A stretch of 64,000 nucleotides of DNA from Sutcliffiella horikoshii. GTDB lineage: Bacteria; Bacillota; Bacilli; Bacillales; Bacillaceae_I. The translations under genes and the position numbers were made by a program. The DNA is taken from assembly GCF_019931755.1 (NCBI RefSeq), contig NZ_CP082918.1, positions 3,390,001-3,454,000 of the forward strand, written 5' to 3'. Position 1 is the first letter of the stretch, and the number at the start of each line of letters is the position of its first letter. The notes below the pieces were generated by a model. It had not been told where the DNA came from and made no database searches. It saw only the letters and a list, made by a program, of their open reading frames with translations. Below, piece after piece: positions 4,859 to 23,570 of this stretch.

Positions 4859-4897
4859 AGGCCAACCAAGGCTTTGAGAGACTTGGTTGGCCTTCTA
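4859..4897 (+). terminator. pckA terminator
   Basis: AGGCCAACCAAG pairs with CTTGGTTGGCCT, followed by TTCTAGTTT, 16 bases after the pckA stop. Confidence 0.85.
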
Positions 4898-4904
4898 GTT
4901 TATG

Positions 4905-5350
4905 GGGGGACGTTTAGAAGAACCCCCTATATGACTGTTTTCATGTTTTTAGTGGGGGTTCGGGCGTATAGAGCTGTCCTATTTAACCGTTTCCCTCTTT
5001 CTCTTGGGTGTTCGGGCATATAGAGCCGTTCTATTTGACTGTTTCCCTCTTTCTCATCGGCGTTCGGGCGTATAGAGCCGTTCTATTTGACCGTTTCCTT
5101 CTTTCTCATCGGCGTTCGGGCGTATAGAGCCGTTCTATTTGACCGTTTCCTTCTTTCTCATCGGCGTTCGGGCGTATAGGATGTTCCCTCTACAACCGTT
5201 TTCCCTTTCCACACCGCGTTTCGGGCGTTGAGAAGCTCCCTCTACTACCGTTTTCCCTTTCCACACCGCGTTTCGGGCGTTGAGAAGCTCCCTCTACTAC
5301 CGTTTTCCCTTTCCACACCGCGTTTCGGGCGTTGAGAAGCTCCCTCTCCC
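4905..5350. repeat. 52-bp tandem repeat array, two subtypes
   Basis: The core TTCGGGCG recurs at 4959, 5011, 5063, 5115, 5167, 5220, 5272 and 5324, a period of 52 with one 53 step. The first copies share GTATAGAGCCGTTCTATT and CCGTTTCC; from 5185 on the unit changes to a second type with GTTGAGAAGCTCCCTCTAC and CCCTTTCCACACC. A degenerate copy precedes 4959. There are no unique spacers and 52 is not a multiple of three, so it is neither a CRISPR nor a coding repeat. It fills the space between the pckA terminator and the 3' end of the esterase gene. Confidence 0.93.
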
Positions 5351-5358
5351 CCTATCAG

Positions 5359-6129
5359 TCACTGTTCCTTCATCCATCTTGTCAACCGCGCCACTATCCT
5401 CCGATTCTCCTGCGGAGGAAAATAATGCGTGTACTCCGAATAATACCACGCTTCCACCTTCTTCCCCATCTCCTTTGCACACTTTTCCAACCTATAAGAA
5501 TGCTCAATAGAAACGTTCTTATCCTGCTCCCCATGAATAATCAATATTGGTGCATCCAGCCGCTCAAGCTCCAACAGAGGTGTCCGCCATTCATATCGCT
5601 CAGGATATTTATTCGGAGTCCCACCTATTACCCGTTTCATCATACGTCGCAAGTCCACTCTCTCCTCGTAAGTCAAAAACATATCAGACACTCCGCCCCA
5701 GGATACAACCGAACACACTTCAGGAAATTCAATTCCTGTCATCAAAGCCATCACACCGCCACGAGAGAAACCGAACACATGAATACGATCAGCTTTCACT
5801 TTTTCATGGCCCGCTAACAACTTAAAAGCAGAAAACGCATCCTCCCTGTCATCCCCAGCAAAGTCCTCATTTCCCTCTCCGCCTTGATTGCCACGGTAAA
5901 ATGGCGCCATCACCACAAAGCCTTCTGAAGCAAATTGAACGATGCGGCCAACACGAACCTGTCCGACATTTTTAATGCCGCCTCTTAAATATAGAAATCC
6001 ATCATACTCCCCTTCCGCTTTCGGTTCTGCCATCAAACCCTTTACCTTTAGGCCGCTGCTATAATAGGTGACCGTAAAGACATTGATATGCGGACTAGGT
6101 GATGGATATGGAGTTTTTTCAACAATCAT
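5359..6129 (-). CDS. ytmA: Alpha/beta hydrolase (YtmA-like, prolyl oligopeptidase fold)
   Basis: A cytosolic alpha/beta hydrolase of unknown substrate, the likely counterpart of B. subtilis YtmA by sequence and by its place beside pckA and ytlA. With a start at 6129 it has 256 residues: nucleophile Ser122 in GFSRGG, acid Asp203 in HGEQDKN and base His235 in YTHYFPP form a complete triad; YLRGG near residue 47 would form the oxyanion region. The start is uncertain: ATG 6129 gives MIVEKTPYPSPS like the family, but the best ribosome binding site (AAGGGGG near 6150) fits a TTG at 6141, and an upstream ATG at 6171 has no such site. The stop codon lies only a few bases from the 52-bp repeat array. 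Confidence 0.88.
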   Translation of the reverse strand: MIVEKTPYPSPSPHINVFTVTYYSSGLKVKGLMAEPKAEGEYDGFLYLRGGIKNVGQVRVGRIVQFASEGFVVMAPFYRGNQGGEGNEDFAGDDREDAFSAFKLLAGHEKVKADRIHVFGFSRGGVMALMTGIEFPEVCSVVSWGGVSDMFLTYEERVDLRRMMKRVIGGTPNKYPERYEWRTPLLELERLDAPILIIHGEQDKNVSIEHSYRLEKCAKEMGKKVEAWYYSEYTHYFPPQENRRIVARLTRWMKEQ

Positions 6130-6252
6130 CCCGTCTTGCAAAATATTGCCCCCTTTTGACGCACTAGGCATTCACACATATTTAGCCCAAATCATACGCT
6201 AATCTATAAAAACATACAAAGCATATGCCCACAATTTCTGAGGAGGTAGAAC

Positions 6253-7248
6253 ATGAAAGGTTTACGTTTAACGTTAAGTATTTTATTATCTTTTGCTTTA
6301 ATTGCTGCCCTTGCAGCTTGCGGTGGAGGCAAAACAGAGAAGGTCCGGATTGCAGAAGTTACCCGCTCTATTTTTTATGCTCCCCAATATGTTGCGATTG
6401 AAAAAGGATTTTTTGAAGAAGAAGGCTTGGAGGTTGAATTAACGACCACTTGGGGCGGAGACAAAACGATGACCACCTTATTGGCTGATGGTGCAGATGT
6501 GGCATTGGTGGGATCTGAGACGTCCATCTATGTGTATGCGCAAGGCTCCAATGACCCGATCATCAACTTTGCCCAACTAACCCAAACAGATGGAACTTTT
6601 TTAGTGTCCAGAGAAAAGCTTGATAATTTTGCGTGGGATGATTTAAAAGGCAGTACATTCCTGGGCCAGCGTAAAGGCGGCATGCCTCAAATGGCAGGGG
6701 AATTCGTCCTCAAAAAACACGGCATTGACCCACAAAATGATTTGAACCTCATCCAAAACGTTGACTTTGCCAACATCCCTAGTGCTTTCGCTTCCGGCAC
6801 AGGTGAATTCGTTCAGCTATTTGAACCACAAGCAAGTATTTTTGAAGCGGAAGGCATCGGATATATCGTCGCTTCCTTTGGGGAAGAGTCGGGTCATCTG
6901 CCATATACGACCTTTATGGCGAAAGAAAGCTATCTAAAAGAGAACCCTGAGACAGCAGAGAAATTCACCCGTGCGCTTTATAAAGCTCAACAATGGGTCG
7001 AAAATAACCCGGCATCTGAGACTGCCAAAGTCATTCTCCCGTATTTCGAGGATACATCGGTAGAGTTGATCGCAACCGTTATTGACCGCTATAAGAGTCA
7101 AGGTTCTTTCGCCACTGACCCTATCCTGGATCAAGAAGAGTGGGATAACCTACAAAACATCATGGATACAGCCGGGGAACTTCCACAATACGTGGAATAC
7201 GATACGTTAGTAAATACAACCATTGCAGAAGAGGTAATGGAAGAATAG
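6253..7248 (+). CDS. ytlA: ABC importer substrate-binding lipoprotein (NMT1/SsuA type)
   Basis: Extracellular solute-binding protein of an ABC importer. The N-terminus is a lipoprotein signal peptide with the lipobox LAAC and the acylated Cys23, then a glycine stretch. The mature part has the NMT1/THI5-like fold signatures: FYAPQYVAIEKGFFEEEGLEVEL near residue 38 and a GADVALVGSE segment. Family members bind thiamine precursors, sulfonates, nitrate or related compounds, and the sequence does not decide which. It starts at ATG 6253 after GAGGAGGTAGAAC and heads an operon with the ATPase 11 bases downstream and the permease overlapping that. No riboswitch is visible upstream. Confidence 0.93.
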   Translation: MKGLRLTLSILLSFALIAALAACGGGKTEKVRIAEVTRSIFYAPQYVAIEKGFFEEEGLEVELTTTWGGDKTMTTLLADGADVALVGSETSIYVYAQGSNDPIINFAQLTQTDGTFLVSREKLDNFAWDDLKGSTFLGQRKGGMPQMAGEFVLKKHGIDPQNDLNLIQNVDFANIPSAFASGTGEFVQLFEPQASIFEAEGIGYIVASFGEESGHLPYTTFMAKESYLKENPETAEKFTRALYKAQQWVENNPASETAKVILPYFEDTSVELIATVIDRYKSQGSFATDPILDQEEWDNLQNIMDTAGELPQYVEYDTLVNTTIAEEVMEE

Positions 7249-7259
7249 GATGATGAACG

Positions 7260-8039
7260 ATGAGTTTATTATCAATCAATAATATAGAACACATCTATTT
7301 TACACCGGAACGGGCTACAAAGGTGCTTGAAGACATCTCCATCACTATCGAGGAAGGGGAATTCATCTCCTTTCTCGGCCCTAGCGGCTGTGGGAAGACG
7401 ACACTTCTGTCGATCATTGCAGGCCTCCTTAAACCAACAGAGGGGTCTGTACTTTTAGGCGGCAGGCCTTCCAAGGACTGCGTAGCGGACATCGGCTATA
7501 TGCTGCAGCAGGATTATCTTTTCCCATGGAAGACCATTGAGGAGAATGTACTGCTGGGGTTGAATATCGCCAACAAACGGTCAAAACCAAATATAGACAA
7601 AACCTTGCAACTCTTAAAAGACATGGGACTGCCGGATGTTGAAAAGTTGTATCCACCTCAGTTATCAGGTGGAATGAGGCAACGTGCAGCACTTGTCCGA
7701 ACGCTTGCCACCGACCCTCAGCTCCTTCTTCTCGACGAACCATTTTCAGCACTGGACTATCAGACAAAGCTAAAGCTTGAGGATTTAGTCTTTACCACAC
7801 TCAAATCATTTAAAAAAACCGCGCTGCTCGTCACCCATGATATCGGTGAAGCGATAGCAATGAGTGACCGAATCTTTCTGTTAAAAGCGAATCCTGGTCG
7901 ATTGGCGAAAACGTTTATAGTCCCGGAAGAATTAAAAAACATGATCCCATTTGAAGCAAGGCAGCATCCGGATTTCTCCTCCTTGTTCCAAAAGATTTGG
8001 AAGGAGTTGGAGCAACTTGAACAAGAAAGCGAACATTGA
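7260..8039 (+). CDS. ytlC: ABC importer ATPase
   Basis: Cytosolic ATPase that powers the importer formed with the neighbouring lipoprotein and permease. The 259-residue protein has Walker [10 protein letters not shown] (about residue 41), a Q-loop with [11 protein letters not shown], signature [11 protein letters not shown] (about 139), Walker [13 protein letters not shown] and the switch histidine in VTHDIGEA. It resembles the SsuB/TauB/ThiZ group. The gene starts 11 bases after the preceding stop; its 3' end contains the ribosome binding site and start of the permease gene. Confidence 0.93.
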
Positions 8040-9418: not shown

Positions 9419-9739
9419 TTATTCAATAATATCATCCATAAGCCCCTGATCTTTAATATGGGCCTTTGTTGCTTCATCACCAAGCTCATAGATCATCTTG
9501 AACGCCTGCTGCAATCCGTTATCATAGGCATCATTCTCGCGGTCATAATGATATTGAACAAACGGGATATGAGCCCGCCAAAAACCCTGCCAATCTGAAG
9601 AATAATTCTGATCAAATATTTCCCTTAATTGCGTTATTTCATCATCTGTTGCCTGTATTTGATAATCCCAAGAAGATGCTGTACTAACTTGTGAGATTGA
9701 ACCCTCTGCCAGTGAAATGTAGTATGTTTTACGCTCCAT
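9419..9739 (-). CDS. Conserved Bacillus protein of unknown function
   Basis: A 106-residue soluble acidic protein with no signal peptide or membrane segment. It contains SSDWQGFWRAHIPFVQYHYDREND in the middle and an alpha-helical C-terminus. I recognise similar small proteins in Bacillus, sometimes labelled hydrolase, but I see no catalytic motif to support that name. AAAGGGTGA lies upstream of the ATG. It stands between ytkD and the holin-like gene, all on the minus strand. Confidence 0.75.
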   Translation of the reverse strand: MERKTYYISLAEGSISQVSTASSWDYQIQATDDEITQLREIFDQNYSSDWQGFWRAHIPFVQYHYDRENDAYDNGLQQAFKMIYELGDEATKAHIKDQGLMDDIIE

Positions 9740-9811
9740 GTATCTTCACCCTTTCCAGTATCTTCTCTTATTTTCACACAAAATCGCTGCTTTATTCTTT
9801 AGTTTCTGTTG

Positions 9812-10210
9812 TTACGGATCCGCCTTTTTCTTAATGGCATCTATTACTTTCTTCAAAATGTTAGGTATCGGCACACCAATGCGTGATGCATTTTCCATAA
9901 TGGAAATGAATTCATTGACCAAATAAAATAAAATCGTAACGTCTTTTATCAAATTAGTACCTAAAATAATGTCCAACACATGCGCGATGCTGACCAATGC
10001 GAAAATAAATACCTTTTGTGCGATCCCCTTAAAACCCACTCGACTTGACAATCGCTTTTCCACATACGCAGCCATGATTCCTGTTACATAATCTACGACG
10101 ACAAACATAATTAAAAACATCAATAGTGAGCTGAAGCCTCCATACAAAAACGAAGCCATGGAGCCCACAAATGATACAGACCCAAGATAGATTAAGTTGT
10201 ACTTGTCCAT
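9812..10210 (-). CDS. ytkC: Holin-like membrane protein (phage holin family 4 / YtkC)
   Basis: A 132-residue protein with about three hydrophobic segments, including LLMFLIMFVVVDYVTGIMAAYVE and VFIFALVSIAHVLDIILG, then NEFISIMENASRIGVPIPNIL, which is characteristic of the toxin-secretion/phage lysis holin family. I start it at ATG 10210, preceded by AGGGGGA; an upstream in-frame ATG at 10330 has no ribosome binding site. No lysin or other phage gene is nearby, so it looks like the chromosomal YtkC rather than part of a prophage. Its role is unknown. Confidence 0.87.
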   Translation of the reverse strand: MDKYNLIYLGSVSFVGSMASFLYGGFSSLLMFLIMFVVVDYVTGIMAAYVEKRLSSRVGFKGIAQKVFIFALVSIAHVLDIILGTNLIKDVTILFYLVNEFISIMENASRIGVPIPNILKKVIDAIKKKADP

Positions 10211-11545: not shown

Positions 11546-12544
11546 TTAGTAGTATTCGTAGATGTAAGGTGAATCTGGTTGTTCTACTTTTTCAAGTGTA
11601 TCTACTTCAACATATGGAAGCGTCCAGTTGTTGTATTGGGTGGTGGTCAGTGTTCCACTCACTTTCACCCAGTCATCATTCTGAAGGTCTCCTCCCCCGC
11701 TCATAGTGGACAATGTCCCATAAACACTGGCATCCGCTACACAGCAAGACAATCCAAAACGTGCGACAACAAACTGATTCTCTGTAAAGTCTGCTTCTCG
11801 GTATACAAATCCAACCATTTCTATTTTCTTGCCGACAAATTCATCAATGCTCATATCAATGATGTTCATCATCGGAATATACCTTTCATCATCCACGACA
11901 ATAGTATCCATCTCAAGCATTTCGGCCTTCAGTTCTTCATAATATCCTTCTGGAGGTTCCTGTAGTTCAAACCCTTCCGGATGTTCTAATGGTGCATCCG
12001 CTAACTGTTCATCAATGGTAGGTTCCCCATTCTCCTGATCTTCCATATACCCTTCAGGATCATCCAAGTAAGCTTCCGCCCTGGATGTTTCAGATTCCCC
12101 ACTTGCGCCGTCAGCACCACCAGATGGCCCATCAAATGCACCCGCCTGCTCACGTTGTTCCACAATCACCTTAGAATTCGTAAATCCGCGCTTATCGATA
12201 ATTGAGCTGTCCAAAATATTATCTGGGAACATGAAACCTGTCACAACAGGCAACACAAACATCGAATAAATCAATATAGATTGAATGGGAGTAGAAGACT
12301 CCCCGTGGTCAAATCCACAATTACACACTAATTCGTCCTTATTTTTGGATCCGCTGCGCCAAATCTGCACAATTCCAAGAATAAACAAAGTTCCTGCTGC
12401 AAAATACATGAACGGCATCATCCGCGGAGCAATGAAATTTGTGATATCCCCTGTGGCCAGAAGTTTAAAAAACAAGAGAGTAAATCCTAGCAATATGATT
12501 CCACGCAAGTAAATGTGGAACCCATAATCACGATTGCTTTCCAT
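11546..12544 (-). CDS. TIGR03943 family putative permease subunit (DUF1980)
   Basis: A 332-residue protein with two hydrophobic segments at the N-terminus (about residues 12-30 and 38-58), a third near 90-106, then a long soluble domain. Between about residues 125 and 200 is a Gly/Ser/Glu/Asp-rich low-complexity stretch. The C-terminal domain carries SCCVADASVYG and is typical of DUF1980. The family occurs next to a COG0701 permease, as here (18 bases apart), and B. subtilis YcgQ/YcgR is such a pair. Such pairs are often found with zinc genes. Start ATG 12544 is preceded by GGAGAGAGG. Confidence 0.87.
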   Translation of the reverse strand: MESNRDYGFHIYLRGIILLGFTLLFFKLLATGDITNFIAPRMMPFMYFAAGTLFILGIVQIWRSGSKNKDELVCNCGFDHGESSTPIQSILIYSMFVLPVVTGFMFPDNILDSSIIDKRGFTNSKVIVEQREQAGAFDGPSGGADGASGESETSRAEAYLDDPEGYMEDQENGEPTIDEQLADAPLEHPEGFELQEPPEGYYEELKAEMLEMDTIVVDDERYIPMMNIIDMSIDEFVGKKIEMVGFVYREADFTENQFVVARFGLSCCVADASVYGTLSTMSGGGDLQNDDWVKVSGTLTTTQYNNWTLPYVEVDTLEKVEQPDSPYIYEYY

Positions 12545-12562
12545 CAATTATCATCCTCTCTC

Positions 12563-13573
12563 CTACAGCACAAGCTGCTGGAAAATAAGTATGGCGGCGA
12601 ACACAACAATCGTCACAACTGCCATAAATACAAGTACAAATTTTGTACGGAAATAAGCAAAAAGCATAAAAGTATTTTTTAAATCTAGCATAGGTCCATA
12701 TACCATGAATGCTAACAACGATCCGACTGTAAAGGTTGAGCCAAATGATGCGGCAACAAAGGCATCTGCTTCAGAACATAGAGAAAGCACAAATGCAAAA
12801 GCCATCATGACTGCTGGAGATAATACCTCATTTTGACCAAGCGCCATCAATACACTGCGGTCAAGGAATGTCTGGAATAAACTCGCAATAAACGCACCGG
12901 CGATCAAGTATTTCCCCATGTCAAAAAACTCATCGCTAGCATGGTAAAATGTTGCTTTCCATTTGTTCTGCTGAAGTACCGGCTGCTCAAGCTCTAAGTC
13001 TTGTCTTCCTTGCAACTCACTTTTCGTCCAGCGAAGCTGATTTTTATTATCAAAAAGCAATAACATCAAAAATCCAATAACAATACACAAAATAAAGGCA
13101 AGTCCGAATCTACCGTATAAAATGGTAGGGTCCCCGTTGAATGCAAAGTATGTAGAAGCTACAACCACCGGGTTAAGAATAGGTGCACCTACAAGCAAGA
13201 CTACTCCTACGTGAAGCGGCATCCCTTTTTTAATTAATCTACGAACAACCGGAATAATCGCACATTCACAGATTGGTAGAATGACCCCAAGTAACGCTGC
13301 CGGAATAATGGCACCAATGGGACTCTTAGGTAAGTATTTTTTTATTTTTTCCTCTGAAACAAATGTTTGAATCAACGCAGAGGCGAATACACCAAGTAAA
13401 ATAAACGGTATGGCTTCAATGACGATACTAAGGAAAATTGTATTTACATTCAGCCATGAGCTTGGAATATCAAGAGAGATCTCCTTGAAATCTATAAAAA
13501 AGAATAGGTATAGGAAAACCCCAATCAAAGCAAGCCCGATTAAATCTTTCAAAAGACTACTGCTTTTCCTCAT
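12563..13573 (-). CDS. COG0701-type permease (YcgR-like)
   Basis: A 336-residue integral membrane protein with eight or more hydrophobic segments and the family motifs PICECAIIPVVRRLIKKGMPLHVG and GAPILNPVVVASTYFAF, plus SLCSEADAFVAASF in the second half. It is transcribed ahead of the DUF1980 gene and the two products are expected to work together at the membrane. The substrate is unknown; the zinc-related neighbours suggest metal handling. AGGAG precedes the ATG. A TATAAT on the minus strand at 13605-13610 is a possible -10 box. The Zur-like box at 13759 lies in the same divergent spacer, 185 bases upstream. Confidence 0.88.
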   Translation of the reverse strand: MRKSSSLLKDLIGLALIGVFLYLFFFIDFKEISLDIPSSWLNVNTIFLSIVIEAIPFILLGVFASALIQTFVSEEKIKKYLPKSPIGAIIPAALLGVILPICECAIIPVVRRLIKKGMPLHVGVVLLVGAPILNPVVVASTYFAFNGDPTILYGRFGLAFILCIVIGFLMLLLFDNKNQLRWTKSELQGRQDLELEQPVLQQNKWKATFYHASDEFFDMGKYLIAGAFIASLFQTFLDRSVLMALGQNEVLSPAVMMAFAFVLSLCSEADAFVAASFGSTFTVGSLLAFMVYGPMLDLKNTFMLFAYFRTKFVLVFMAVVTIVVFAAILIFQQLVL

Positions 13574-13758
13574 TCTTCTACTCCTATCATATTTTCTATT
13601 TTGTATTATAACATATCAAACTTTTAAAACTTTATCTTTGTTACTAGCAATATATGTCTAATCTATTAACAGTATGATAGAAATGTTTGGAAAGCTTTTT
13701 CGTGTTTCTGCTTCTTGATTCCTCCTGCACATTCCTATACTATATGTAATATCTATAA

Positions 13759-13773
13759 TCGTAATGATTACTA
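13759..13773 (+). promoter_or_regulatory. Candidate Zur box 1
   Basis: TCGTAATGATTACTA differs at one position from the B. subtilis Zur consensus TCGTAATNATTACGA. It begins at the end of a TATAAT (13754-13759) and is 26 bases before the FAD-protein start, so bound Zur would block transcription. Confidence 0.72.
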
Positions 13774-13798
13774 TTTGCAAGAAAGAGGAGTGTTCACT

Positions 13799-14974
13799 AT
13801 GCATCAATGGGTTATCATCGGTGGTGGCATCCAAGGTTTAACCGTTGCCACGTTTTTGCTTAAAAAGAATAAAACTACCATCAACCAATTAAGAATAGTT
13901 GATCCAAATCACAAGCCATTGGAAAATTGGAAAAGGTGTACCTCCACTATTTCCATGCCATACTTGAGATCGCCCTCTGTACATCATTTAGATACAGATC
14001 CATTTAGTTTGCAGTCTTTTTCCAAGAAAGAACCAAACTATCAATCAAACAATGATTTTTACGGAAGATATAAAAGACCTTCCTTACATATGTTTAATGA
14101 TCATTGTGATCACCTGGTTGATGAATTGGAAATCCTGCAAGCTTATGTCACATCAAAGGTTAGTCATATAGAAAAGCATGATGGGTATTGGATAGTGGAC
14201 CTTGAAAATGGAGAAAAATTAAAATCGGAAAAAGTCGTGATAGCCATCGGAATCAGTGAGCAGTTGCACCTCCCAGAATGGGCAAAAAATTTAAAACAGA
14301 CCAATCCTAACTCATTATTCCATGTGTTTGACAAGGATCTTCCGAGCTTTGAAAAAATGAATGCCCCGTTTGTAGTGGTGGGTGGTGGAATTACCGCCAC
14401 TCATCTAGCAATCAAACTGGCTTCTTTGTTCCCTGGTGAAGTAACCATGCTAAAACGCCATCCATTCAGGGTTCATGATTTTGACAGTAATCCTGAATGG
14501 CTTGGTCCTAAAAAACGGCAGCCTTTTGTCAAAATGAAAGACTATGAAAAAAGACGCGATGCCATAAGGTCAGCAAGGCATAAAGGCTCCATCCCATCGG
14601 AATTACGGAACAGACTCAGCCATCTAGTTCGAACAGAGAAATTAATTATTAAAGATGGAATGGTAACAGAATATCAAGTCCGTCCTAAGGAAGTACAACT
14701 TTCACTTGATACAGGAGAATTTGTAAAAGCTGGCTCCATCCTTATGGCAACTGGTTTTGAACAGAACCTTCCTGGCAAGGACTGGCTAGAACCTGTCATC
14801 AAACAAGAAAAGCTTCCATGTGCCAAGTGCGGTTATCCCATTGTTAACCACATGTTAGAATGGGCACCAAACCTCTATGTGAGTGGAGCACTAGCAGAAC
14901 TTGAAGTTGGCCCAATTGCCCGAAATATATCAGGAGCAAGAGTAGCAGCGTCCATCATTTCATCAGCAAATTAA
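13799..14974 (+). CDS. FAD/NAD(P)-binding oxidoreductase, putatively Zur-controlled
   Basis: A 391-residue flavoprotein with two Rossmann fingerprints: VIIGGGIQGLT at residues 5-15 for FAD and VVVGGGITATHLA near residue 200 for NAD(P)H. An ATGFE motif (family ATG) lies near residue 320. The arrangement resembles flavin monooxygenases and the SidA/IucD-like N-hydroxylase superfamily, but I cannot name a substrate. A CAKCGYP pair of cysteines near residue 342 might bind metal. Start ATG 13799 has AGAGGAG upstream; an upstream ATG at 13715 has none. A Zur-like box overlaps the presumed promoter, linking the gene to zinc limitation. I know of no such gene in the B. subtilis Zur regulon. Confidence 0.85.
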   Translation: MHQWVIIGGGIQGLTVATFLLKKNKTTINQLRIVDPNHKPLENWKRCTSTISMPYLRSPSVHHLDTDPFSLQSFSKKEPNYQSNNDFYGRYKRPSLHMFNDHCDHLVDELEILQAYVTSKVSHIEKHDGYWIVDLENGEKLKSEKVVIAIGISEQLHLPEWAKNLKQTNPNSLFHVFDKDLPSFEKMNAPFVVVGGGITATHLAIKLASLFPGEVTMLKRHPFRVHDFDSNPEWLGPKKRQPFVKMKDYEKRRDAIRSARHKGSIPSELRNRLSHLVRTEKLIIKDGMVTEYQVRPKEVQLSLDTGEFVKAGSILMATGFEQNLPGKDWLEPVIKQEKLPCAKCGYPIVNHMLEWAPNLYVSGALAELEVGPIARNISGARVAASIISSAN

Positions 14975-14977
14975 AAC

Positions 14978-15020
14978 AGAACAAGGAGTATAAACTAACT
15001 TGTCTATACTCCCTTTTGTT
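14978..15020. terminator. Bidirectional terminator between FAD gene and MATE gene
   Basis: GAACAAGGAGTATA pairs with TATACTCCCTTTTGTTC between two convergent genes. Confidence 0.75.
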
Positions 15021-15027
15021 CGAGCTA

Positions 15028-16416
15028 TCAGTTTACAGCCTTTTGGGTGAATTCTTCTACTTCCTTGGACTGTAATTTCATCCAACTATTATTCTTGTAT
15101 TTTAAACCCAATAAAACAGCTCTAAATAGATTATCCAGACCAATGGCAATCCAAACACCCGCTATTCCTAAACCAATATAAATACCGAGAAGATAGACCC
15201 CTACTGTTCGAATCAACCATATTCCAATGGCAGTTACATACATTGGGAATCTAGTATTTTCACCCCCATGGAAAACTCCCGTCAATATTAAGACAACAGC
15301 AAGAATAGGTTGGATAAAGGCATCTATTTGAAGAGCAATGGTAATCTGTTGTATAACTTGTATATCTTTAGTGAAAAAGCCAGCTGCCCATTCAGCTAAG
15401 AAAAATAACATCAAACCTAGAATCGTCATCGCACCGACACCAATCAGAACGCAAAAATCCGCATACTTTTTTGCCCCTGCCAAATCATTGGCACCAAGCC
15501 TTTGTCCTACCAAGGTAGTAGCGGCAGTTGCAAAACCATAGCCGATCATATATGAAAATATTTCAATGTTCCCTGCTATCTGGTGTGCTGCAAATGTATT
15601 GGTCCCTAAAGCTACTATCATTCCAAAGTAACGGACCTGACCGATTCTCATTACAAGCCTTTCGCCTGCTGCAGGAGTGCCTAACGCCAGCAACTGATAC
15701 TGGACTTCTTTATCAGGGCGCCAATAAGACAGACTGAACTTCATATCGTTTGATCTTCCTAAATACCACAACAGACCGGCAACTCCCACCAACCTTGCAA
15801 TCAAAGTGGCATATGCTGCCCCTTCCAAACCAAGTGCTGGAACAAAGAACCAACCAAAAATTAGAATGTAGTCCAAAGCAATGTTTAGTAGATTAATAAA
15901 AATACTTATTTTCATTGGTGATTTAGTATCACCAGCTCCTCTTAAAATACTGCTGAGGACAAACATTAACGAAATAAATACAGATGGCACTGCCACAATC
16001 CTAAAATAACTGGCTGCAGGAGTGAGGACTTCCTCTGAGACTCCCATTAACTTTAATAGTGACTCAGCAAATAAAAGTGAAATCAAGCCAAATAATATAC
16101 CTATTATAACCGCAAGCAGGATGGATTGTTGCGCTACCTTTCCTGCTTTTTTGTCATTACCTGCCCCTGTATTTTTTGCGATAAAGACGTTTGCTGCCAC
16201 CCCGATAGACATGAATACCGCAAAATAAACTGCAAGGATTGCATTTGTAACTCCTACAGCAGATACCTCAATCAAACCTAATTGGGAAACAAATAATGTA
16301 TCCACAAATCCTAAGATCGTCTGAAAAAAATTATCGATAACTGCAGGAATGGAAAGTAGAAGAATCGTTTTTACTATCTGCCTGTTCGTTTCTGATGAAT
16401 GCAATGGCTTTGTCAT
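15028..16416 (-). CDS. MATE family efflux transporter
   Basis: A 462-residue multidrug and toxin extrusion transporter with about twelve hydrophobic segments. FVDTLFVSQLGLIEVSAVGVTNA near the N-terminus and VGQRLGANDLAGAKKYA in the second half are family hallmarks. It would export cationic compounds using an Na+ or H+ gradient. I choose ATG 16416 with AGGGGGA upstream; the longer frame from 16458 starts with 14 residues lacking a site. It follows the csoR-like gene by 13 bases, so the two form an operon and the exporter is probably induced by the CsoR-family ligand. Confidence 0.92.
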   Translation of the reverse strand: MTKPLHSSETNRQIVKTILLLSIPAVIDNFFQTILGFVDTLFVSQLGLIEVSAVGVTNAILAVYFAVFMSIGVAANVFIAKNTGAGNDKKAGKVAQQSILLAVIIGILFGLISLLFAESLLKLMGVSEEVLTPAASYFRIVAVPSVFISLMFVLSSILRGAGDTKSPMKISIFINLLNIALDYILIFGWFFVPALGLEGAAYATLIARLVGVAGLLWYLGRSNDMKFSLSYWRPDKEVQYQLLALGTPAAGERLVMRIGQVRYFGMIVALGTNTFAAHQIAGNIEIFSYMIGYGFATAATTLVGQRLGANDLAGAKKYADFCVLIGVGAMTILGLMLFFLAEWAAGFFTKDIQVIQQITIALQIDAFIQPILAVVLILTGVFHGGENTRFPMYVTAIGIWLIRTVGVYLLGIYIGLGIAGVWIAIGLDNLFRAVLLGLKYKNNSWMKLQSKEVEEFTQKAVN

Positions 16417-16429
16417 GTTTCCCCCTATT

Positions 16430-16735
16430 TTATCTAATGAATTTGTCAATCGCCTCATTCAATTTTTCTACTACTTTTTCATCCCCTTCCTTAATTGCTT
16501 CTACCACACAGCCTTCAAGGTGGTCTTTAAGGATCAGCTTCCCGCAATTGTCTAATGCCGATCTAATTGCAGCTATTTGGATCAAAAGATCACCACAATC
16601 TCTTTCATTACTCGCCATCTCTTTTACCGAACGGACATGACCTTCAATTCTTGCCAGCCTGTTCACTATACTTTTGCGATGCTTATGGTGGTCTCCCACT
16701 TTACCGCCACCTTCCATAAATAATACTTCTATCAT
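16430..16735 (-). CDS. CsoR/FrmR-family metal-sensing repressor
   Basis: An all-helical DNA-binding repressor of about 101 residues with RKSIVNRLARIEGHVRSVKEM, the family signature. The ligand positions of copper CsoR are filled: Cys in RDCGDLL and His plus Cys in KDHLEGC, with an extra Cys in DNCGKL. An N-terminal GDHHKHR adds histidines. Copper or another soft metal is the likely inducer, but nickel, sulfide or aldehyde types exist in this family. The start is either ATG 16735 or ATG 16717. A CCCCTAGGGG palindrome overlaps the upstream region and suggests autoregulation. It is the first gene of an operon with a MATE exporter. Confidence 0.88.
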   Translation of the reverse strand: MIEVLFMEGGGKVGDHHKHRKSIVNRLARIEGHVRSVKEMASNERDCGDLLIQIAAIRSALDNCGKLILKDHLEGCVVEAIKEGDEKVVEKLNEAIDKFIR

Positions 16736-17429: not shown

Positions 17430-17657
17430 ATGAAACATGTCTTATTATCCATTATACGTTTTTATCGAAAATTCATATCCCCATTAACCCCGCCAACCTG
17501 CCGATTTTATCCGACATGCTCCCATTATGGCATGGAGGCAATCGGACGTTTTGGAGCTATCAAGGGCGGTTGGCTTACAATAAAGAGAATTCTTAAATGC
17601 CATCCTTTCCATCCAGGCGGCATCGATCATGTCCCGGAAAAGAAAGAAAAGAATTAA
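17430..17657 (+). CDS. yidD: Membrane protein insertion efficiency factor YidD
   Basis: A 75-residue member of the YidD family, thought to help the insertase place proteins in the membrane. Signatures are [20 protein letters not shown] and [17 protein letters not shown], which run in the family order. GAGGTGACAGTAA precedes the ATG. It is the counterpart of B. subtilis YtjA. The stop overlaps the stop of the carbonic anhydrase gene on the other strand by four bases. Confidence 0.96.
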
Positions 17658-18220
17658 TTTTGCTCATATCCATTTACAACAAGATCTAATTTACCTGTGT
17701 GCGGATCAATGACCAATCCATGCACAGGTACCCCGTCTGGCATAAGTGGATGGTTTGCAATCATATCTACACTCTCACGAACGCTTTCCTCCACGCTATC
17801 GAACCCTTTTAAGAAGCCTTTTACATCAATGCCTGCATATTTCAAGTCATCAATTGTTTCTTTCGTTACTCCCCTTGCTTCCATCTTTTCACGCATGCCT
17901 ACCGGATTGATTTTGCCCATTCCGCAATCGTGATGGCCAACAACCAATACTTCATCTGCATTAAGTTCAAATACTGCAACCAAGATACTTCTCATGATAC
18001 TTCCAAATGGATGAGATACAATCGCTCCGGCATTTTTTACAATTTTCATATCGCCATGTTTCAGGTTCATCGCCTTTGGTAACAAGTCCATCAGCCTTGT
18101 ATCCATGCATGATAACACCACTAATTTCTTGTCAGGAAATTTGGTGGTCTGGTATTGAATATACTCCTCTTTTTCAACAAAACCCGTATTATGTTCTAAA
18201 ATTTCATCCAGTAATTTCAT
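17654..18220 (-). CDS. ytiB: Beta-class carbonic anhydrase (YtiB-like)
   Basis: Interconverts CO2 and bicarbonate in the cytosol. The 188-residue protein has zinc ligands Cys38 (SCMDTR), His96 and Cys99 (GHHDCGM) and the Asp40-Arg42 dyad. VKNAGAIV follows as usual. AGAGGG precedes the ATG. The gene is convergent with yidD (four-base overlap of stops) and divergent from the Zur-box-preceded GTPase gene. Confidence 0.95.
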
Positions 18221-18345
18221 CTGTTTTACCCTCTTTCTGAATAATAATTTAGATTCCCTTCTTTCAATATGACAAACTCAAACCAAAATGACAATAAAAA
18301 TAGCTTGTTTTCTTGCTAAGTTTTTAGTACTATTCAATATGTAAA

Positions 18346-18360
18346 TCGTAAAGATTACGC
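18346..18360 (+). promoter_or_regulatory. Candidate Zur box 2
   Basis: TCGTAAAGATTACGC matches the Zur consensus at 12 of 14 specified positions and is flanked by AAA, 29 bases before the GTPase start. It sits between divergent genes, but the closeness favours the plus-strand gene. Confidence 0.7.
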
Positions 18361-18389
18361 TTTAAACGAGAAAGGAAGTTAATATTTTT

Positions 18390-19574
18390 ATGAAAAAGAA
18401 AATACCTGTAACAGTACTAAGCGGTTACCTTGGTGCCGGAAAAACAACATTGTTGAACCATATTTTATCAAATAGAGAAGGTTTGAAGATTGCTGTAATT
18501 GTAAACGATATGAGTGAAGTGAATGTCGATGCCGCACTTATCCAGCAAGGCGGATTTTCCAGAACCGAAGAAAAGTTGGTAGAAATGCAGAATGGCTGCA
18601 TTTGTTGCACCTTGCGTGATGATTTAATGAAGGAAGTAGAGCGTCTAGTAGACGAAGGCAACATCGACTACATCGTTATCGAATCCTCCGGAATAAGTGA
18701 GCCAATACCTGTTGCCCAAACTTTTACTTACTTAGATGAAGAATTTGATATTGATCTCACTGAAAAGTGCCGCTTAGATGCGATGATTACTGTGGTTGAT
18801 GGGTTCCGCTTCTATGACGACTATCAATCCGGCGAAAGTCTCTTAGATCGTAAACAGGGAACAGACGAATCGGATATCCGTGAGATTTCTGATCTACTAA
18901 TCGACCAAATTGAATTCGCTGACATTCTTTTATTAAATAAAACTGATTTACTAGAACCAGAAAATGTAGTGGAATTAGAGGCACTATTGAAGAAATTGAA
19001 TCCTGATGCAAAAATAATCCAAACGGTAAACAGCCAAGTAGAGTTGGAAGCCATTTTGAACACAGGATTGTTCGATTTTGAAAAAGCGAGCCAAGCAGCG
19101 GGTTGGATCAAGGAATTGAACGAAGAGCACATCCCTGAAACAGAGGAATATGGAATATCTTCCTTCGTTTATCGTCGCAGAAAGCCATTTCATCCTGAGA
19201 GATTTAAAGCTTGGCTAGATAATTGGCCTAACGAGATTGTCCGTGCCAAAGGATTCTTCTGGCTTGCTTCAAGAAATGATATGGCTGGTTTGATTTCCCA
19301 AGCTGGTGCATCTATTATGATTCAAGGTGCAGGTGAATGGGTTGCAAGCTACAGCGAAGAGGAGAAAAGACAAACATTAGAAGAAGAACCAGAATTATTG
19401 GAAAGATGGGACGAAACTTATGGAGACAGAATGACAGAACTTGTTTTTATCGGCATTGAAATGGAACAAAAACAGATTGAACGCTCACTAGACACCTGTC
19501 TTCTTACTGAAAAAGAAATGAATGAGGACTGGTCCAAGCTTGCTGATCCTGTTCCCGCTTTTATCATAGAGTAA
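18390..19574 (+). CDS. COG0523 GTPase, ZagA/YciC-like zinc metallochaperone
   Basis: A 394-residue GTPase of the CobW family. GYLGAGKTT is the P-loop, [11 protein letters not shown] carries the CxCC metal motif (Cys70, 72, 73), and LLLNKTDLL gives the guanine specificity. The C-terminal CobW domain begins near residue 240. Length and motifs match the ZagA/YciC group, which in B. subtilis is made under zinc limitation and is proposed to deliver zinc to the folate enzyme FolE. AAAGGAAG precedes the ATG, and a Zur-like box lies 29 bases upstream. The next gene is a zinc-binding lipoprotein with its own Zur box. Confidence 0.9.
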
Positions 19575-19614: not shown

Positions 19615-19629
19615 TCGTAACAGTTACGA
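19615..19629 (+). promoter_or_regulatory. Candidate Zur box 3 in the znuA-like promoter
   Basis: TCGTAACAGTTACGA is a perfect 7-1-7 palindrome differing from the Zur consensus at two symmetric positions. It abuts TATAAT at 19630-19635, so a bound repressor would cover the promoter. Confidence 0.75.
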
Positions 19630-19667: not shown

Positions 19668-20903
19668 ATGAAAACTAAATCTATTTTTATCGCAATGATG
19701 TTAGTAGTTTTTACATTCCTTGTTGGATGTAATTCAGATAATCAGGCTTCTGACGGCAGTGAAAAGTTGACTGTCTATACGACCATCTTCCCTTTGGAGG
19801 ACTTCACAAAGAAAATTGGAGGGGATCATGTTGATGTGAAATCTGTCTTTCCTGCTGGTGCAGATGCACATACTTTTGAGCCATCTACCAAAACAATGAG
19901 TGAAATGGCTTCTGCCGATGCTTTCATTTATACAGGTGTTGGCGTTGAAGGCTTTGCGGATAAAGCCAAAGAAGTCCTAGGAAACGAGGACGTAAAGATT
20001 GTTGGAGCTGCAGAAGGAATTGAGCTACGACCAGAGGGTGGAGAATCTGAACACGAAGAACACGGGGATGAGCACTCCGACGAAGCTCATGACGAAGAGC
20101 ACGGTGATGAGCATTCCGACGAAGCTCATGATGAAGAGCACGGTGATGAGCACTCCGACGAAGCTCATGACGAAGAACACGGTGATGAACACTCCGACGA
20201 AGCTCATGACGAAGAGCACGGTGATGAACACTCCGACGAAGCTCATGACGAAGAACACGGTGATGAACACTCCGACGAAGCTCATGACGAAGAACACGGT
20301 GATGAGCACTCCGACGAAGCTCATGATGAAGAGCACGGCGATGAGCATGCAGAAGATGGACATGAAGGACATGACCATTCTAATGGAGATCCACACGTGT
20401 GGTTAGACCCTACTCTTTCTATCACACTTGCTGAAAATGTGAAAAATGCACTTGTTGAATTAAAACCAGAAGCAAAAGAAGATTTTGAAGCAAACTTTGA
20501 AACAGTGAAAGCTGACTTAGAAAAATTAGATACAGAATTCAAAGAAACAGTAGATAGCGCGAAAACAAATAAGATATTAGTTTCCCATGCAGCATACGGT
20601 TACTGGGAGAACCGTTATGGATTGGAGCAAATCAGCGTAACTGGTTTATCTCCAACTCAAGAGCCTTCACAGAAACAACTGACTGAAATTATTAACACCG
20701 CAAAAGAAAATGAAATCCAATATGTTATTTTTGATCAGAACATCAGCGGAAAGATTGCTGAAGTGGTGAAAAATGAAATCAAAGCAGAGGCTCTAGTCCT
20801 GCATAACCTAGAGGCAGCAACAGAAGAAGACGTAGAAAATGAAGAAGATTACTTCAGCTTGATGCGTCAAAACTTAGAAACGTTGAAGAAGGCGTTGAAT
20901 TAA
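19668..20903 (+). CDS. znuA: ZnuA/AdcA-like zinc-binding lipoprotein with His-rich repeat
   Basis: Extracellular metal-binding protein of the cluster A-I (TroA) family. A lipoprotein signal ends with LVGC, Cys21. Residues about 130-220 are seven exact or near-exact copies of a 13-residue His/Asp/Glu unit, then a partial eighth, leading into GHEGHDHSNGDPHVWLDPT. Expected zinc ligands are present: His in DAHTFEPS, His in DPHVWLDP, His in SHAAYGYW and Asp in FDQNISG. It has 411 residues against about 310 for the family because of the loop. No permease or ATPase gene is adjacent, so it must use a transporter encoded elsewhere. Start ATG 19668 has GAGAGGAG; ATG 19638 does not. A Zur box overlaps the promoter. 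Confidence 0.92.
   Translation: MKTKSIFIAMMLVVFTFLVGCNSDNQASDGSEKLTVYTTIFPLEDFTKKIGGDHVDVKSVFPAGADAHTFEPSTKTMSEMASADAFIYTGVGVEGFADKAKEVLGNEDVKIVGAAEGIELRPEGGESEHEEHGDEHSDEAHDEEHGDEHSDEAHDEEHGDEHSDEAHDEEHGDEHSDEAHDEEHGDEHSDEAHDEEHGDEHSDEAHDEEHGDEHSDEAHDEEHGDEHAEDGHEGHDHSNGDPHVWLDPTLSITLAENVKNALVELKPEAKEDFEANFETVKADLEKLDTEFKETVDSAKTNKILVSHAAYGYWENRYGLEQISVTGLSPTQEPSQKQLTEIINTAKENEIQYVIFDQNISGKIAEVVKNEIKAEALVLHNLEAATEEDVENEEDYFSLMRQNLETLKKALN
20055..20327 (+). repeat. Seven 39-bp tandem repeats inside znuA-like gene
   Basis: A 39-base unit encoding EEHGDEHSDEAHD is repeated seven times, differing only at a few third positions (for example GAG/GAA, CAC/CAT). A shortened eighth unit follows. The copies are so similar that slippage or unequal crossing-over should change their number. 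The repeat is in frame and encodes a flexible metal-binding loop. Confidence 0.96.
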
Positions 20904-20982: not shown

Positions 20983-21948
20983 CTACTCTCCTCTTCCTCT
21001 CAACGCCTCACAAAACCCTTCCACTTTCTTATCATCAATATCTTTTCCTATCAGAATAATGGAAGGCTCTACGTCGATTTTCTCGACTCTGTTCAACACC
21101 AAAGTGGAAGCAGCATACTGAAACTCGTACAAGCCTGGAGTTTCATCAAGCCGCACAATCCCCTTGGACCTTACCACCTGTTTAGAAAGTTTCTTCAATT
21201 GTTTCTCTAATACCACTCGATTTACAGGCTCGAAAAACGCGACTTTCACTGCTTCAATGTGGTGGTGATGGTGGTGATGGTGGTGATGACTATCATGGCC
21301 ATGTCCATCCCCTTCCACTCTCACTTCTCTCATTTGCATTCTCTTTTCCAAAAGAATCTCCAGTGGAACCTCCCCATAACTCGTCCGGTAGACAGGAATG
21401 TGATCCTCTAACTCATCAGCAAGCTTGGACTCCACTTTAATCAACTCTTTTTCGGAGACAAGATCCATTTTATTCAACACCAACAAATGGGCAGATGTGA
21501 CTTGCTCCTTCAACAGGCCTCGTATTTCTTTGGAACTGTTGAAAAAGCTTTGATACTCCAGATAATGACTTGCATCTACAAGACTGATCATGGACTGCAA
21601 TTCAAAATGTTCCATGTACGTGGGGGTCAACAAGACATCTTTAATTTCAAGTGGATTGGCGACACCAGTTCCTTCAATAATTAGGACGTCCACCTTTTCA
21701 CCCACATATTGATCTAGCGTGGATTTCAAATCAACTTGAATGGTACAGCAGATGCATCCATTCAGAAGCTCCACCACCCTCTCTCCCTGAAAAAGGTGAT
21801 TTTCCACATTTTCATCACCAAGTTCATTTAGAATGATTCCGGGCTTTAATCCTTCATTTTTAAAATGTTCTAGCATATGTAAAAGCACGGTTGTTTTGCC
21901 GCTCCCTAAAAATCCGCTTATAACGTAAACTGGTACCTTTTTTGACAT
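20983..21948 (-). CDS. COG0523 GTPase with polyhistidine segment
   Basis: A second CobW-family GTPase, 321 residues, distinct from the one at 18390. P-loop GFLGSGKTT, CxCC motif NGCICCTIQ (Cys65, 67, 68), EGTGVANP and guanine motif VLNKMDL are present. Residues 215-230 read GHGHDS followed by ten consecutive His, a metal-binding stretch before the C-terminal domain. This resembles YjiA/YeiR or HypB-like chaperones that hold zinc or nickel. I start at ATG 21948 (MSKKVPVYVISGF) with AGGAG ten bases upstream; the frame runs back to 21996 without a site. A Zur-like box lies 87 bases upstream. Confidence 0.9.
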   Translation of the reverse strand: MSKKVPVYVISGFLGSGKTTVLLHMLEHFKNEGLKPGIILNELGDENVENHLFQGERVVELLNGCICCTIQVDLKSTLDQYVGEKVDVLIIEGTGVANPLEIKDVLLTPTYMEHFELQSMISLVDASHYLEYQSFFNSSKEIRGLLKEQVTSAHLLVLNKMDLVSEKELIKVESKLADELEDHIPVYRTSYGEVPLEILLEKRMQMREVRVEGDGHGHDSHHHHHHHHHHIEAVKVAFFEPVNRVVLEKQLKKLSKQVVRSKGIVRLDETPGLYEFQYAASTLVLNRVEKIDVEPSIILIGKDIDDKKVEGFCEALRGRGE

Positions 21949-22034
21949 TTTATTAGCACTCCTAACGTTTCTTCTTCTTATAATCCTAATACCCATTATA
22001 CATTTGCTCTAAAAGCAAATAAAACCATTATCAA

Positions 22035-22049
22035 ATCGTAATCATTACG
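22035..22049. promoter_or_regulatory. Candidate Zur box 4
   Basis: TCGTAATCATTACGC matches the Zur consensus except for the last base. It lies between the divergent His-rich GTPase gene (87 bases away) and the oxidase gene (169 bases away). A TATAAT on the minus strand at 21995-22000 suggests the GTPase gene as target, although the box would then lie upstream of the -35 region. Confidence 0.68.
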
Positions 22050-22217
22050 CTTTTAATTTTATAGTTTATACAGCATCCTTTCAAGTAATTTAAATTACCA
22101 TTTTACTTATCATTCTGACAGCTTTATGGTCTTACTTTTTCTTTAGCAAATTATGCATATTTTGTGGAAAAATGTGGACTCTAACGGTATATAACAGCTT
22201 GAAGGGACGTAGCCAAA

Positions 22218-23570
22218 ATGGAAGATGTAGTAATTGCACGGTCATTGTTTGGAACCACGATGGGATTTCATATCATTTTTGCGACACTTGGCGTTGGGAT
22301 TCCTTTAATGATTTTAATTGCCGAATTAATGTATCAGAAAACGAAAAACCGTGAATACGCTATTATGGCAAAAAGATGGACGAAAGCTAAAGCGGTGTTA
22401 CTTGGTGTCGCAATTCCTACAGGGACGATCGCCGGAGTTCAGCTTTCCCTTTTGTGGCCTGGTTTTATGGAGGTCATCGGTAAGGTTATGGCCCTCCCTT
22501 TTCAGATTGAAATATATGCTTTTTTCATTGAAGCATTGTTTATTTCCATTTACGTGTATGCAGCGGACCGCATTTCACCGTGGATGCGAATATTGAGTGT
22601 GACGCTTGTGACCATCGGTGCGGCGGCGTCAGCGGTCTTGATAACAAACGTCCATGCTTTTGAAGGAACACCGGCAGGATTCCGAATTGAAAATGGCCAG
22701 ATAGTCGATGTCGACCCTTGGGCTGCTTTTTTTAACCCAAGTTTCGTCGTTACTGCTGCCCATGTGGCAGTATCTGCATTTATGACTGGTGCGTTTGTCA
22801 TTGCCTCTGTTGCAGCTTATAAAATGTTACGAAACAAGCATGATGAGCGAGTATATAAATTTCACCGAAAGGCTCTGATCATGGGGCTTGTTGTGGGAGG
22901 AATATTTTCGTTTATGACGGCCATTAACGGTCATGAATCTGCGCAACTTTTGCATCAATACCAGCCAGAAAAATTGGCGGCAGCAGAAGGACTCTTTGAA
23001 ACACAGTCACATGCTCCACTTGCAGTCGGAGGATTCACCGACCGTGAAACAAAGGAAGTGAAATGGGGCATTGAAATACCGTGGGCTTTGAGCTTTTTAG
23101 CGGATGACCGTTTTGACACGGTCGTGGTCGGACTCGATGATTTCCCTGAGGAGTATTGGCCTCCATTATTTGTCCATACCCTTTTCAACGCAATGGTTGG
23201 AATAGGTTCACTTTTAATCATGCTCTCTTTGGTTGGCTTCTTTTGGAGCAAGGTTCTCAAAAAAACAACCTATCCAAAATGGCTTATGTGGCTCTTTGTA
23301 GCAGCGGGTCCTCTTTCGGTGATGGCTATCGAGTTTGGATGGATTTTCGCATGTACGGGTAGACAGCCTTGGGTTATTTATCGAGTGATGTTAACGGAGG
23401 ATGCTGTAACAGGCAACCAAAATCTTGCCGCATTATTCATCGCGTTTGCAGGGATCTATGTACTTCTCGGGGTTGCAGTGGTATTAGTCCTTCGCTATTA
23501 CTTTAAGCGCCATCCAATTGAGGACGAGTTGAACGATATTCCCCCATCATCTAACGGGGTTCAAGCATAA
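22218..23570 (+). CDS. ythA: Cytochrome bd-like quinol oxidase subunit I (YthA)
   Basis: Membrane subunit I of a bd-type terminal oxidase that would oxidise menaquinol and reduce oxygen. The 450-residue protein has about nine hydrophobic segments, the N-terminal heme ligand His18 in MGFHIIFA, QIEIYAFFIEALF with conserved Glu, and a short Q-loop as in the cyanide-insensitive and YthA groups. The normally conserved GWxxxExGRQPW motif reads GWIFACTGRQPW here (residues 374-385), so Cys379 replaces Glu. GAAGGGACG precedes the ATG. Subunit II follows by 14 bases. Confidence 0.93.
   Translation: MEDVVIARSLFGTTMGFHIIFATLGVGIPLMILIAELMYQKTKNREYAIMAKRWTKAKAVLLGVAIPTGTIAGVQLSLLWPGFMEVIGKVMALPFQIEIYAFFIEALFISIYVYAADRISPWMRILSVTLVTIGAAASAVLITNVHAFEGTPAGFRIENGQIVDVDPWAAFFNPSFVVTAAHVAVSAFMTGAFVIASVAAYKMLRNKHDERVYKFHRKALIMGLVVGGIFSFMTAINGHESAQLLHQYQPEKLAAAEGLFETQSHAPLAVGGFTDRETKEVKWGIEIPWALSFLADDRFDTVVVGLDDFPEEYWPPLFVHTLFNAMVGIGSLLIMLSLVGFFWSKVLKKTTYPKWLMWLFVAAGPLSVMAIEFGWIFACTGRQPWVIYRVMLTEDAVTGNQNLAALFIAFAGIYVLLGVAVVLVLRYYFKRHPIEDELNDIPPSSNGVQA

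Follow-up and report, generated by a model that had tools for sequence, protein, structure and literature searches.

What is a flavin enzyme doing behind an apparent operator for the zinc repressor Zur? The question arises in a 64,000 nucleotide (nt) stretch of the Sutcliffiella horikoshii genome (contig NZ_CP082918.1, positions 3,390,001 to 3,454,000; hereafter the window, whose numbering is used below), in which an open reading frame on the + strand runs from an ATG at 13799 to a stop codon ending at 14974, with the sequence AGAAAGAGGAG 8 nt 5′ of the ATG. Its 391 amino acid product carries the dinucleotide-binding motifs GGGIQG (residues 8–13) and GGGITA (195–200) and matches the Pfam families Pyr_redox_2 (8e-17), NAD_binding_9 (1e-12), and Pyr_redox_3 (1e-11), so that the FAD/NAD(P) flavoprotein with two Rossmann sites proposed in an earlier, sequence-only reading is borne out by both motifs and families; we regard an NAD(P)H/FAD enzyme as highly probable. 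The same reading had noted a Zur box with a single mismatch before this gene, and the site is there: TCGTAATGATTACTA at 13759–13773 (+ strand), 40 nt 5′ of the ATG, differs at one position from TCGTAATNATTACGA, which we, like that reading, take to be the Zur consensus.

The box is the only site with three or fewer mismatches in the intergenic region between the flavoprotein gene and a divergent permease gene, and so it may also serve the permease. The window as a whole contains ten such sites against 2.7 expected, a number reached in none of 100 shuffles. Genome-wide, six sites have at most one mismatch, and half of them precede zinc-type genes: the flavoprotein gene, a COG0523 GTPase gene (21996, − strand), and a second ZigA-like gene (contig C1, 1651570, − strand) whose box, 28 nt upstream, is identical (TCGTAATGATTACTA). 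The other three lie inside open frames, one of them perhaps immediately before the actual start of a gene for a small membrane protein. A two-mismatch variant, TCGTAACGATTACTA, is found 27 nt 5′ of an S14-like gene (S14 named by eye), and eight of nine two-mismatch sites inspected beyond the window are inside open frames. A candidate for the repressor itself is one of three Fur-family genes in the genome; it lies directly 3′ of ABC-3 permease and ABC ATPase genes, and we call it Zur from this context, the gene order znuC-znuB-zur.

Two results weigh against a functional box. At two or fewer mismatches the whole genome has 27 sites and a backwards control pattern has 36, and with no genome-wide excess the box by itself was ruled out as sufficient evidence. 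In addition, a sigma-70 consensus scan found no promoter match at the box; the suggestion of the sequence-only reading that it overlaps the promoter is plausible from a TATAAT seen by eye at 13754–13759, but that scan lends it no support. Both results favor an accidental match before a gene that is under some other control, an explanation that is hardly credible when the box is kept at 62 of 80 orthologue loci and stands unaltered before the second ZigA-like gene.

These orthologue loci came from a reference-genome scan and are the best 80 of 458 stretches encoding relatives; all 80 were examined, taking the best box of two or fewer mismatches within 250 nt upstream. The 62 boxes comprise six perfect, 32 one-mismatch, and 24 two-mismatch sites, whereas shuffles gave 0.26. 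When the start is taken from the longest frame the count is 58 of 80, and leaving out the seven Sutcliffiella-type loci gives 55 of 73; half of the 18 loci that lack a near box (nine) have one of two or fewer mismatches within 1500 nt upstream. In the same upstream stretches the control patterns were found at 0 (Fur), 1 (PerR), and 0 (backwards) of the 80 loci, and a Fur or PerR box was rejected as the identity of the site. A box precedes 30 of 1033 other genes at these loci after removal by hand of 18 clusters (the flavoprotein, zinc-type genes, or genes sharing their intergenic regions), a control that supersedes an unfiltered count of 129 of 1144 frames, mostly zinc genes by eye among the 120 listed. 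A palindrome search that presupposed no consensus returned CGTAAT-N-ATTACG as the commonest perfect 6-1-6 palindrome of the 80 upstream stretches (16 loci; the runner-up, 4). Close orthologues were where the sequence-only reading would have looked for the same box, and all seven loci at 79–83% identity carry it. Conservation, not motif frequency, is the real support for this putative operator. The proposal of Zur control and a role in zinc limitation is thus strongly supported by comparative evidence, the box at 62 of 80 loci and the linkage to zinc genes; we consider it very probable that Zur controls the gene, and a function under zinc limitation appears just as probable.

The linkage was counted within 10 kb of the flavoprotein gene, or less at contig ends. 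A COG0523 gene is present at 62 of the 80 loci, S14 at 42, znu-type genes at 41 (a count that takes in ABC ATPases of 24–30% identity, possibly of other transporters), and ArsP_1/TIGR03943 genes at 28; 75 loci have at least one of these. Clustering of neighbors without preset queries likewise placed COG0523 at the top (61 of 80), and Pfam searches with ten cluster representatives confirmed FolE2, dCTP-deaminase-like, molybdopterin-binding, NifU_N, and BPD transporter proteins among the recurrent neighbors. Around the Bacillaceae members, queries for HemB, FolE (Synechococcus type), and HisI gave no match at any of the 80 loci. Order-wide, 85 of 299 genomes carry the flavoprotein (E ≤ 1e-30); a ZigA-like gene is found in 154 (E ≤ 1e-80, our own threshold, as no match in the 299 genomes attains the NCBIfam cut-off). 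The ZigA-like gene is present in 82 of the 85 flavoprotein genomes versus 72 of the 214 others, counts that are uncorrected for descent; gaps between the two genes were taken from 26 adjacent pairs and describe only the neighbor cases among the 82. Within the host genus, two of 11 genomes are without the flavoprotein gene.

A small protein of about 120 amino acids is encoded near the flavoprotein at 31 of 80 loci (for example, at 9564–9938 of locus L060), in several of them between the S14 gene and the flavoprotein; the one member tested had no Pfam match. Four loci (L032, at 4867–7637, L038, L039, and L054) have a second, different flavoprotein with a box of two or fewer mismatches upstream. 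In L032 it is a Pyr_redox_3 protein, and the gene after it encodes a GTPase that has Gate and MMR_HSR1 domains; the other three second flavoproteins look alike by eye; a Haloferax zinc island also holds a Pyr_redox_3 protein.

The zinc genes that the sequence-only reading had placed nearby are indeed present in the window, each behind a box-like site found by pattern scan. A ZigA/YciC-like COG0523 GTPase gene (18390–19574, + strand; NF038288, 8e-165, 548 bits, under the cut-off of 600) follows a two-mismatch Zur-like box at 18346–18360 (+). Next, behind another two-mismatch box at 19615–19629 (+), is the gene of a zinc ABC transporter substrate-binding lipoprotein of AdcA/ZnuA type with a His/Glu-rich repeat insert (19668–20903, +; NF033605, 5e-64, under the curated cut-off), in which EEHGDEHSDEAHD-like units are repeated in tandem at 19998–20400. 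The second COG0523 GTPase gene, with a His run (20983–21996, −; PF02492, 7e-46), has a one-mismatch box 39 nt 5′ of it (22036–22050, +). The box at 18346 lies in a divergent region (17654–18390) common with a carbonic anhydrase gene, and that at 22036 in one (21996–22218) common with a cytochrome bd subunit I gene, both families being assigned from Pfam matches of relatives in loci L030 and L037. Divergent from the flavoprotein gene are an ArsP_1 family permease gene (12563–13573, −; PF03773, 2.8e-87) and a gene for a TIGR03943 family putative permease subunit (11546–12547, −; profile match). Among the 29 ArsP_1 genes found across the 80 loci, 17 are preceded within 250 nt by a box of two or fewer mismatches, some of these boxes being common with a divergent flavoprotein gene, and the pair at 11546–13573 looks like zinc-responsive partners.

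What reaction might such a protein catalyze? A single-sequence search of solved structures gave no match at 0.001, and the best 60 of 200 profile matches to solved structures are FAD enzymes. The closest solved structures to the predicted model are N-hydroxylating monooxygenases of siderophore pathways, which match its fold over the whole length; the best of them align over 358–367 residues, versus 304–333 for the bacillithiol disulfide reductase YpdA and bacterial flavin monooxygenases (FMOs). YpdA and the thioredoxin reductases form a second tier of structural matches. In alignments the flavoprotein is 14–18% identical to the flavin N-hydroxylating monooxygenases PvdA, KtzI, SidA, DfoA, DesB, and IucD, but its substrate motifs differ from theirs and no siderophore cluster was recognized near it. 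LQVPFxADLV and FSPDY, presumably the substrate-binding motifs of the ornithine and lysine enzymes, are not present, and the aligned stretches read ISMPYLRSPSV and WLGPK (an alignment that used five N-hydroxylases, of 19 loci). Pfam Lys_Orn_oxgnase (PF13434) is not matched by the flavoprotein at E 0.001, yet it is listed for many relatives. The family has a putative substrate pocket of its own, with the conserved LRSPxVHH, WLGPK, R260, W355, and R375-N376, and a CxxC pair (C341, C344) is present in 23 of 24 Bacillaceae-type members. A monooxygenase seems slightly favored over a reductase or oxidase. Two other flavoproteins of the genome were set aside: the second PF13454 match is another kind of flavoprotein, and a CzcO-like flavoprotein on contig C4 (20000–34000), adjoining CzcD-like and ArsR-like genes, is a different gene, so that CzcO was rejected as the identity.

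Relatives also occur beyond the Bacillaceae. Zinc-type neighbors were found in 12 of 16 plasmid regions inspected, two of the 12 being Bacillaceae plasmids with CobW-type GTPases; the cyanobacterial and archaeal plasmid relatives are 27–33% identical to the flavoprotein. The Leptolyngbya relative has zinc ABC genes, hemB, and CobW as neighbors, and those of Picosynechococcus PCC 73109 and PCC 7002 have hemB and folE, with adjoining small genes that have no Pfam match; the PCC 73109 copy is without the CxxC pair. Among the haloarchaea, the neighbors are CobW, S14, and hisI in Haloferax, metal ABC genes and CobW in Halorubrum, CobW and S14 in Natrialba, Halovenus, and Natronosalvus, and metal or zinc ABC genes in Haloarcula and Halorientalis. 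No zinc gene was found in the plasmid regions of S. aureus, Deinococcus, Salinigranum, and Salimicrobium (4 of 16). The S. aureus “plasmid” CP052031 looks chromosomal in part, with a Na+/H+ antiporter operon, NifU, and YuzB.

Regulation of one of these relatives is already in print. Synechococcus sp. PCC 7002 SYNPCC7002_G0132, an FAD-dependent oxidoreductase of plasmid pAQ7, is 31% identical over its length to the flavoprotein, differing in being cyanobacterial and in adjoining hemB-II and folE-II; we take RS15860 of the plasmid record to be G0132 because it is the sole flavoprotein of the hemB-II/folE-II cluster. The cluster hemB-II, folE-II, G0131, and G0132 is up in the mutant of A2498 (Zur) and with TPEN, in an account whose consulted portions state no function for G0132 (PMC4628125). 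In Corynebacterium glutamicum the putative oxidoreductase Cg0795, which we liken to the flavoprotein by regulation and gene context and not by sequence, is directly repressed by Zur and divergent from a COG0523 gene with which it has a common intergenic region, and its authors propose that it may act with the COG0523 GTPase (PMC2823685). Such a gene is mentioned in a table of PMC6103462, and the consulted portions of PMC2770081 mention none. The B. subtilis Zur regulon (zinT, znuACB, yciC, rpsNB, folEB, rpmEB) has partner genes of like kinds, and the word oxidoreductase is absent from the main text describing it, as is a flavoprotein from the consulted portions (PMC5007448). The main text on B. 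anthracis is likewise without oxidoreductase, monooxygenase, or flavo (PMC6336718), as is that on Anabaena, from which FAD is absent too (PMC10957091). In those parts of the literature that were searched, no mention was seen of the family by name, of its presence in Bacillaceae and haloarchaea, of its fold, or of a link with ZigA.

The sequence-only reading suggested that the enzyme could make or modify a metallophore. In that event its substrate would be an amine or amino acid, and the N-hydroxylated product would be turned into a secreted zinc chelator or would modify one. The fold agrees with this, being that of the siderophore N-hydroxylases, and CntA-like substrate-binding protein (SBP) relatives occur at 12 of 80 loci, several SBP genes having Zur boxes. 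In locus L041, moreover, an operon (11659–16439) lies directly 3′ of the flavoprotein gene behind a perfect Zur box and consists of a gene without Pfam match followed by NAS-like, Staph_opine_DH, and SBP_bac_5 genes, a staphylopine-type arrangement. But CntK/L/M-like genes are present at one locus of the 80 only, and staphylopine dehydrogenase (PF10100; 24 of 299 genomes) is absent from the host genome and is not enriched with the flavoprotein (9 of 85 genomes versus 15 of 214 others; Fisher p 0.35). Nor was a biosynthetic partner recognized among the recurrent neighbors; no acyltransferase, nonribosomal peptide synthetase (NRPS), or NIS synthetase is among the named neighbor clusters of at least six loci, as judged by eye and, for ten representatives, by Pfam. 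A secreted chelator thus appears unlikely, and a cytoplasmic product other than a metallophore is moderately favored. A little less likely still is a flavin reductase that maintains metal-binding cysteines, in ZigA or in its clients, in the reduced state, although the flavoprotein adjoins and co-occurs with ZigA-like genes, YpdA and thioredoxin reductases stand in the second structural tier, and the CxxC pair is nearly constant in Bacillaceae-type members. Least likely of the three is that the flavoprotein does without zinc the work of a zinc-dependent enzyme, be it an oxidoreductase or another kind, in the way that FolE2 replaces FolE; the sequence-only reading had also raised replacement of a zinc enzyme. 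Such paralogues do share its loci (S14 as given above, FolE2 at 8 of 80, and a dCTP-deaminase-like gene at 7 of 80), and hemB and folE copies adjoin the Synechococcus 7002 relative, but the flavoprotein is not recognizable as the paralogue of a zinc enzyme, its best profile matches are the FAD enzymes noted above, and no zinc-enzyme counterpart was found for it to replace.

Over all of these we favor an internal reaction in zinc allocation, because metallophore partners were not recognized and ZigA is the steady companion. The course of events that we infer is as follows. Zinc-loaded Zur would sit on the box 40 nt 5′ of the start codon and block transcription; when zinc is exhausted, the flavoprotein gene would be expressed along with those for ZigA (COG0523), ZnuA, and related proteins. 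The product would use NAD(P)H and FAD in the cytoplasm, would have the predicted N-hydroxylating-monooxygenase fold with a substrate pocket of its own, and would most likely oxidize a small nitrogen-containing molecule, whether through N-hydroxylation or through a flavin reaction of related type, and that reaction would belong to the pathway of the ZigA GTPase, in zinc allocation or sparing rather than in synthesis of a secreted metallophore. A functional partnership with ZigA seems to us an even bet, and the explanation as a whole, a Zur-regulon flavoenzyme with an internal reaction for zinc allocation or sparing in a pathway with ZigA, falls slightly short of that. A bolder version, which we think improbable, is that a family derived from, or sister to, the siderophore N-hydroxylases belongs to the core response to zinc starvation in Bacillaceae, cyanobacteria, and haloarchaea. 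Its members would N-hydroxylate an internal metabolite, either into a cytoplasmic zinc ligand or for charging of the ZigA system, and zinc allocation would then have an intracellular branch resembling a metallophore pathway.

There is no settled account of how the widespread COG0523/ZigA chaperones distribute zinc. Within this order the flavoenzyme is rarely found without a ZigA-like gene; it lies beside COG0523 genes in archaea as well and has its own putative zinc-repressor box, which makes it a concrete candidate for a missing piece. In that role it would bring into the response to zinc starvation a step of redox or oxygenation chemistry that no current model known to us includes.
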